Positions 51,666-52,915 of a DNA stretch of 53,385 nt are shown piece by piece. The notes beneath the pieces were generated by a model. That model saw nothing but the letters and a program-made list of their open reading frames with translations, ran no database searches and had not been told where the DNA came from. The stretch's first letter is position 1, and each line of letters begins with the position of its first letter. The translations under genes and the position numbers were made by a program. Source of the stretch: an uncultured Bacteroidota bacterium (lineage in GTDB: Bacteria; Bacteroidota; Bacteroidia; NS11-12g; UBA9320); the NCBI GenBank assembly GCA_913050005.1, contig CAJXBI010000006.1:1-53385 (forward strand). Reading direction: 5' to 3'.

Positions 51666-52661
51666 ATGAGAACTAAAAAAGTAATAAGTCTTAGTCAATT
51701 TATCGCAGACCAACAAAATAAATTTCCAGATGCAAACGGCGATCTTTCCAAAATTTTCAGAGATCTGAAATTCGCTGCTAAAATCGTCAATAAAGATGTT
51801 CGAAAAGCTGGACTTGTAGACGTACTTGGTGCTTTTGGAACAGTAAATGTTCAAGGTGAAGAAGTAAAAAAATTAGATATTATAGCTAACGAAGAATTTA
51901 AATCCTCACTAACACTAGGAGGCGATTGCTGTGCAATTATTTCTGAAGAAGAAGAAGATATTCATCAAATAGAAACCACGTTAAATCTAGACAGTAAATA
52001 TATTATATCCATAGACCCATTAGACGGAAGTAGTAATATTGATGTAAATGCATCAATTGGAACTATCTTTTCAGTTTATAAGCGTAAAAGTCCTTTAGGC
52101 GGACCTGTAACTATGGAAGATGTTCTTCAAAAAGGTGTCAATCAAGTATCTGCAGGTTATATTATTTATGGAAGTAGCACTATGCTTGTATTTACAACCG
52201 GACAAGGTGTAAATGCGTTTACATTAGATTCTTCAATCGGTGATTTTTGTCTCAGTCATCCAAATATTAAAATACCATCAAATGGAAGTATTTATTCCGT
52301 AAATGAAGGAAATTATGACCAGTTTAATCAAAATATAAAAGACTACATTGATTATTGCAGAAACTCTATTGACAAAAAGGTGTATAGTGCCCGATACATA
52401 GGTAGTATGGTTGCAGATTTTCACAGGAATCTACTCAAAGGAGGAATTTTTATGTATCCATCCACTACAAATTCACCTGAAGGAAAACTGAGGCTTATGT
52501 TTGAGAGTAATCCAATGGCATTTATCACTGAACAAGCAGGTGGAATAGCTACTACTGGCCAAGATAGGATACTTGAATTACAACCCACCGAAATCCATGA
52601 GAGAAATCCAGTAATTATGGGTAGTTCGAACATGGTAAAAAAGGCTTTATCGTTTAAATGA
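51666..52661 (+). CDS. fbp: Class 1 fructose-1,6-bisphosphatase
   Basis: YIISIDPLDGSSNIDVNASIGTIFSVYK; ARYIGSMVADFHRNLLKGGIFMYP. Confidence 0.97.
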   Translation: MRTKKVISLSQFIADQQNKFPDANGDLSKIFRDLKFAAKIVNKDVRKAGLVDVLGAFGTVNVQGEEVKKLDIIANEEFKSSLTLGGDCCAIISEEEEDIHQIETTLNLDSKYIISIDPLDGSSNIDVNASIGTIFSVYKRKSPLGGPVTMEDVLQKGVNQVSAGYIIYGSSTMLVFTTGQGVNAFTLDSSIGDFCLSHPNIKIPSNGSIYSVNEGNYDQFNQNIKDYIDYCRNSIDKKVYSARYIGSMVADFHRNLLKGGIFMYPSTTNSPEGKLRLMFESNPMAFITEQAGGIATTGQDRILELQPTEIHERNPVIMGSSNMVKKALSFK

Positions 52662-52915
52662 ATATCAAATTTGTAAGAATATTAATACTCGCAGGGTCAA
52701 TAATTTCATTGATATCTAGCTGCAAAAAAGAGTGCATTAAAAATACAAAATGTAATGAGAACCATGAAAATGACTCAACATTATGTACAGCATATTTTGA
52801 ATCTTAGATATATTATGCTGATGAAAATAAATGTAAATACGAAGGATACAGTGGGTGTTCTCTAATTGGCTTTGAAACACAATCAGAATGTGAAAAATGC
52901 GATTGTAATCGCTAA
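52658..52915 (+). pseudogene. Small Cys-rich lipoprotein with Kunitz/BPTI-like spacing, interrupted by one in-frame TAG (52805-52807)
   Basis: Translation: MNIKFVRILILAGSIISLISSCKKECIKNTKCNENHENDSTLCTAYFES*IYYADENKCKYEGYSGCSLIGFETQSECEKCDCNR*. ATG overlaps the fbp TGA. Signal peptide with lipobox SLISSC. C-x15-C-x7-C crosses the stop codon in frame. Confidence 0.7.

Follow-up and report, generated by a model that had tools for sequence, protein, structure and literature searches.

An 85-codon lipoprotein gene lying directly after fbp is interrupted by a single in-frame TAG at codon 50. Most probably this TAG reflects a very recent loss of function, or else an assembly base error, and not a new reading of the code. 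We consider it probable that the TAG is real and that the window carries a recent TGG-to-TAG nonsense allele of a small envelope Kunitz lipoprotein gene. The sequence-only reading of this DNA had left the choice open between a very recent pseudogene, a sequence error, a strain polymorphism and genuine readthrough. A recent nonsense change or an error was favoured by the comparisons described here, and readthrough was conceivable but unsupported.

An interrupted lipoprotein frame begins in the fbp stop codon

The window, meaning the whole stretch of DNA analysed, is one contig of 53,385 bases, and the TAG lies 578 bases inside it. The features at this locus were as follows.

51666..52661 (+): upstream gene, which we take to be fbp (fructose-1,6-bisphosphatase); its stop TGA (52659-52661) overlaps the lipoprotein ATG, and orthologs with 93% identity are present in genomes G003, G007 and G010
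52658..52915 (+): Kunitz-type lipoprotein gene, 85 codons plus TAA, broken at codon 50 and beginning within the fbp stop (ATGA)
52658..52723 (+): putative signal peptide and lipobox (I-S-S-C) ending at Cys22, which is presumed to be lipidated; assigned by eye, with Cys22 invariant in 35 of 35 family members
52658..52807 (+): predicted standard-code product, truncated at 49 aa, with Cys22, 26, 32 and 43 only; the other five cysteines and the larger part of the Kunitz hairpin and helix are absent
52751..52900 (+): Kunitz core, Cys32 to Cys81, corresponding to BPTI C5, C14, C30, C38, C51 and C55 by alignment (PF00014 on homologs; PDB)
52805..52807 (+): in-frame TAG, codon 50; TGG in 4 of 4 same-genus orthologs and Trp or Tyr in all other members
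52808..52915 (+): part of the frame after the TAG, 35 codons plus TAA, strongly conserved by dN/dS against the orthologs

The frame translates as MNIKFVRILILAGSIISLISSCKKECIKNTKCNENHENDSTLCTAYFES*IYYADENKCKYEGYSGCSLIGFETQSECEKCDCNR*, where the first asterisk is the TAG at 52805-52807 and the last is the TAA at 52913-52915. The peptide YEGYSGCSLIGFETQSECEK falls after codon 50. A hydrophobic stretch followed by I-S-S-C22 was evident by eye, as expected of a bacterial lipoprotein, and the read-through protein contains nine cysteines with the lipobox Cys22 counted, five of them past the TAG. The start, the position of the interruption, the natural end, the lipobox and the richness in cysteine were all as the sequence-only reading had described them. 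Apart from the TAG, the frame contained no further lesion, either frameshift or stop.

The end of fbp (52645-52661) differed in length by one base from the orthologs (TTATCGTTTAAATG here, TTATCCTACTAAATG in L002). As a result, the fbp stop is a TGA that overlaps the ATG instead of a TAA just before it, and the protein has different last residues (LSFK vs LSY).

The gene belongs to a divergent Kunitz lipoprotein family

When searched against Pfam Kunitz_BPTI (PF00014) the window protein scored 8.6 bits and its close orthologs 14.9-16.4 bits, below the cut-off of 21, while homologs L006-L010 scored 23.8-47.7 bits and 34 of the 35 aligned family members matched at E < 0.05. Judged by these alignments, PF00014 membership is reached through the family and not by the window copy alone. 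Kunitz inhibitors also dominated the phmmer matches in the PDB (best E 0.0009). An AlphaFold2 model built from 35 sequences (pLDDT 79) placed hairpin strands at 45-53 and 58-66 and a helix at 75-79, and the 50 PDB matches listed in a fold search of this model were all Kunitz domains, with TM by target mostly 0.5-0.6; the highest probability was 0.99, whereas the best E was only 0.016. The model therefore predicts the twisted hairpin and C-terminal helix of the Kunitz fold. Taken together, sequence and model support the Kunitz assignment first proposed from cysteine spacing, and the gene is a real, divergent Kunitz lipoprotein gene.

Residues C22, C32, C43, C59, G66, C67, C78 and C81 were invariant across the 35 members, which includes all six core cysteines (C32, 43, 59, 67, 78 and 81). 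These occur in the same order as in Kunitz/BPTI proteins (PF00014, MEROPS family I2), and the spacing C43-x15-C59-x7-C67 is exactly that of BPTI C14-x15-C30-x7-C38, as had been proposed. The other core spacings are off the canonical pattern by one or two residues. Further likenesses are an Ala at P1' (33/35 members), Y-x-G-C before Cys38, aromatic residues at the Tyr21 and Phe45 positions and the predicted hairpin plus C-terminal helix. Unlike canonical Kunitz/BPTI proteins, the members described here are bacterial lipoproteins, the loop after Cys38 is two residues shorter (a departure already noticed in the window sequence), Cys51 and Cys55 are separated by two residues instead of three, and the window copy has a stop codon within it. 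P1 is most often Gln in the family in place of Lys or Arg, so the target protease is not predictable. The family also has a cysteine pair beyond the canonical six, C26 and C83, outside the core. Both were present in 30 members, neither in three and C83 alone in two, and this tendency to be gained or lost together suggests that C26 and C83 may form a fourth disulfide. Intact members are probably lipid-anchored inhibitors or binders of serine proteases at the cell surface. Within the literature that was searched, nothing relevant on bacterial Kunitz lipoproteins was found.

Same-genus orthologs are unbroken and encode Trp at codon 50

Related genomes (197) were searched using the read-through protein as query with the TAG written as W. 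Four genomes of the same genus (G003, G007, G010 and G015) encoded orthologs of 85 unbroken codons with 76-79% identity (E 8e-43 to 5.5e-44), each positioned directly after fbp; the G015 sequence is identical to that of G007 over the lipoprotein gene. The convergent helicase gene that comes next in the window also comes after the ortholog in G010. Conservation of the whole 85-residue protein at the same place in four genomes is far beyond chance for a spurious frame. Codon 50 was TGG in all four orthologs, so the UAG is not conserved, and across the 34 other aligned members this column was Trp in 27 and Tyr in seven. The sequence-only reading had placed the TAG at the aromatic position of the fold (Tyr21 of BPTI) and guessed at a one-base change from TGG, and both suggestions held. 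Homologs with the same cysteine spacing exist, and neither the orthologs nor the distant homologs end at the TAG position.

Comparison of the two parts of the frame with the orthologs gave dN of 0.10-0.17 for the part from Cys22 to the TAG and dN of 0.023-0.048 with dS of 0.78-0.96 for the part after it. Of the differences after the TAG, seven were private to the window genome, and six of these were synonymous. Had the whole path been neutral, at most one non-synonymous change in seven would have a probability of about 0.0002-0.003. As dN after the TAG is low relative to dS and the private changes are mostly synonymous, purifying selection acted on this part through most of its past, until recently or still. 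The single private non-synonymous change is Pro69 to Leu; every other genus member, G002 among them, has Pro there. If the frame has been neutral since the stop arose, the TAG has existed for at most about 13% of the branch, a rough bound that comes from small numbers and a simple counting method and takes the stop as the onset of neutrality.

These results are consistent with the following course of events. One G-to-A change would have converted Trp50 from TGG to TAG in the window genome, and ribosomes should halt there, leaving a 49-residue lipoprotein stub. Such a stub, without the C-terminal half of its Kunitz fold, would presumably not inhibit a protease. The change would be too recent for the downstream frame to have decayed, and because that frame is undecayed the window copy is probably either a newly arisen null allele or a polymorphism within the population. 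Trp codons belong to the small set from which one transition makes a stop. The G010 ortholog offers five such single-transition routes, TGG-to-TAG being one, and its only Trp codon accounts for two. Against a nonsense allele stand the conservation of the downstream frame, equally expected under readthrough, the chance that a suppressor tRNA was missed, with 18 tRNAs read from a genome 86% complete, and a TAG at another Trp position of the same gene in a second member of the genus, G002.

A second interrupted copy occurs in G002

The G002 homolog (L006, G002:C1:190966-191205) is 49% identical to the window protein and lies 48 kb from its fbp, at another place in the genome. Its own TAG, three codons upstream of the window position, is at codon 47, which encodes Trp in the homologs nearest to it (L078 and L079). 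As the codons differ, a TAG shared by descent was rejected. In 247 kb of G002, single stops interrupted at least six further conserved genes, with TAA, TAG and TGA all represented. These were noted at the following positions.

L064: 13040
L068: 8279 and 9915
L065: 5170
L072: 2246
L074: 2509

The genes affected are OmpA-like, AlgH-like, ECF sigma, histidine kinase, CBM and FIST. Because these other genes are cut, and by all three stops, general sequence error or gene decay is the simpler account of the G002 TAG, and we discounted this copy as independent support for readthrough. Only an RF2-like match was found in G002 in place of release factor 1 (RF1); completeness of this genome is 71%.

Sequence error, readthrough and selected truncation as alternatives

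The TAG could instead be a consensus or assembly error, in which case the living cell would have TGG and make a normal Kunitz lipoprotein. The assembly is of metagenome type (58 contigs, 86% complete), the TAG is near a contig end with a one-base length difference from the orthologs just upstream at the end of fbp, and a single base separates it from the codon of the orthologs. Against this, the base is still 578 bases inside the contig, and the gene carries another private change, Pro69 to Leu, where the rest of the genus has Pro. Furthermore, a codon-usage scan of 548 kb of the genome, which has little power for short genes and missed the lipoprotein gene itself, found no other convincing interrupted gene, whether by TAG (as the sequence-only reading had raised) or by another in-frame stop, suggesting that the assembly is not noisy. 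We regard an error as unlikely, although it is the foremost of the alternatives.

We judged it distinctly improbable that a near-cognate or suppressor tRNA decodes the UAG and so gives a low level of full-length Kunitz lipoprotein. The conserved downstream frame would fit such a mechanism, as would the G002 TAG at a codon that is Trp in L078 and L079. According to Belinky et al. (2021, PMC7918605), in-frame stops with dN/dS < 1 are widespread in bacterial genes and readthrough may occur at them, and the window gene resembles those cases in having a single nonsense codon in an otherwise intact, conserved frame. However, that large-scale study centres on stops common to orthologs of at least two species, and the window gene fails a shared-stop test as its four nearest relatives have TGG. 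The G002 TAG is likewise at a different codon, in a metagenome-assembled genome (MAG) where at least six more conserved genes contain internal stops. The translation machinery of the window genome also argued against readthrough. RF1 is intact (492.7 bits), and TAG terminated 53 of the 236 ORFs of at least 300 codons (22%) in the sampled 548 kb, which led us to reject genome-wide UAG reassignment. A CUA-anticodon tRNA was not seen among the 18 tRNAs recovered, and at 86% completeness one could be missing. Neither an Rfam family at the stop nor an unusual RNA fold near it (z-score 0.39) was detected, and a structured readthrough element or known RNA family was rejected on these grounds.

A-to-I editing of UAG to UGG, which would restore Trp, was considered separately. 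Bacterial TadA edits in a TACG context. Neither site (TCT TAG ATA; TAT TAG GAA) has such a context, and editing seems unlikely.

A broader form of readthrough, in which decoding of UAG at Trp positions throughout the genus sets a low inhibitor dose and the TAGs were acquired independently in two species, seemed to us very improbable. Least probable of all was selection for the truncated 49-residue lipoprotein as a product in its own right, as the intact signal peptide and lipobox and four remaining cysteines would allow; all other aligned members are full length save the interrupted G002 copy, and selection for truncation leaves the downstream conservation unexplained. A recent nonsense allele therefore remained our preferred reading. 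The gene gives a clear case in which one stop within a conserved frame of a MAG resembles recoding, yet a recent nonsense change or a base error explains it better.

The family is scattered through Bacteroidia

Among 395 sampled Bacteroidia genomes, a profile of the family detected the gene in 34 at E < 0.001, and in about 30 of these it was full length and convincing. On inspection these were all unbroken apart from the window copy. Stops in homologs L082, L084 and L099 were considered as interruptions and rejected, being the normal terminal stops of those genes. A six-frame search with PF00014 found matches in five of 396 genomes compared to about 30 of 395 with the family profile, the two samples overlapping but being different. 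The Kunitz/BPTI lipoprotein family is thus scattered through Bacteroidia and mostly missed by the standard Pfam model. The stop codon itself is for now of minor interest, and it is the family that deserves attention with respect to protease inhibition.

Within the genus the gene is held patchily, as a convincing member was present in 6 of 19 genomes, the window genome counted, compared to fbp at least in part in 16 of 19. A plasmid search gave no match. Inspection by eye revealed no conserved gene neighbourhood outside the genus, and the family was seen in unrelated neighbourhoods across Bacteroidia (L078, L080, L083, L090, L093, L097 and others).
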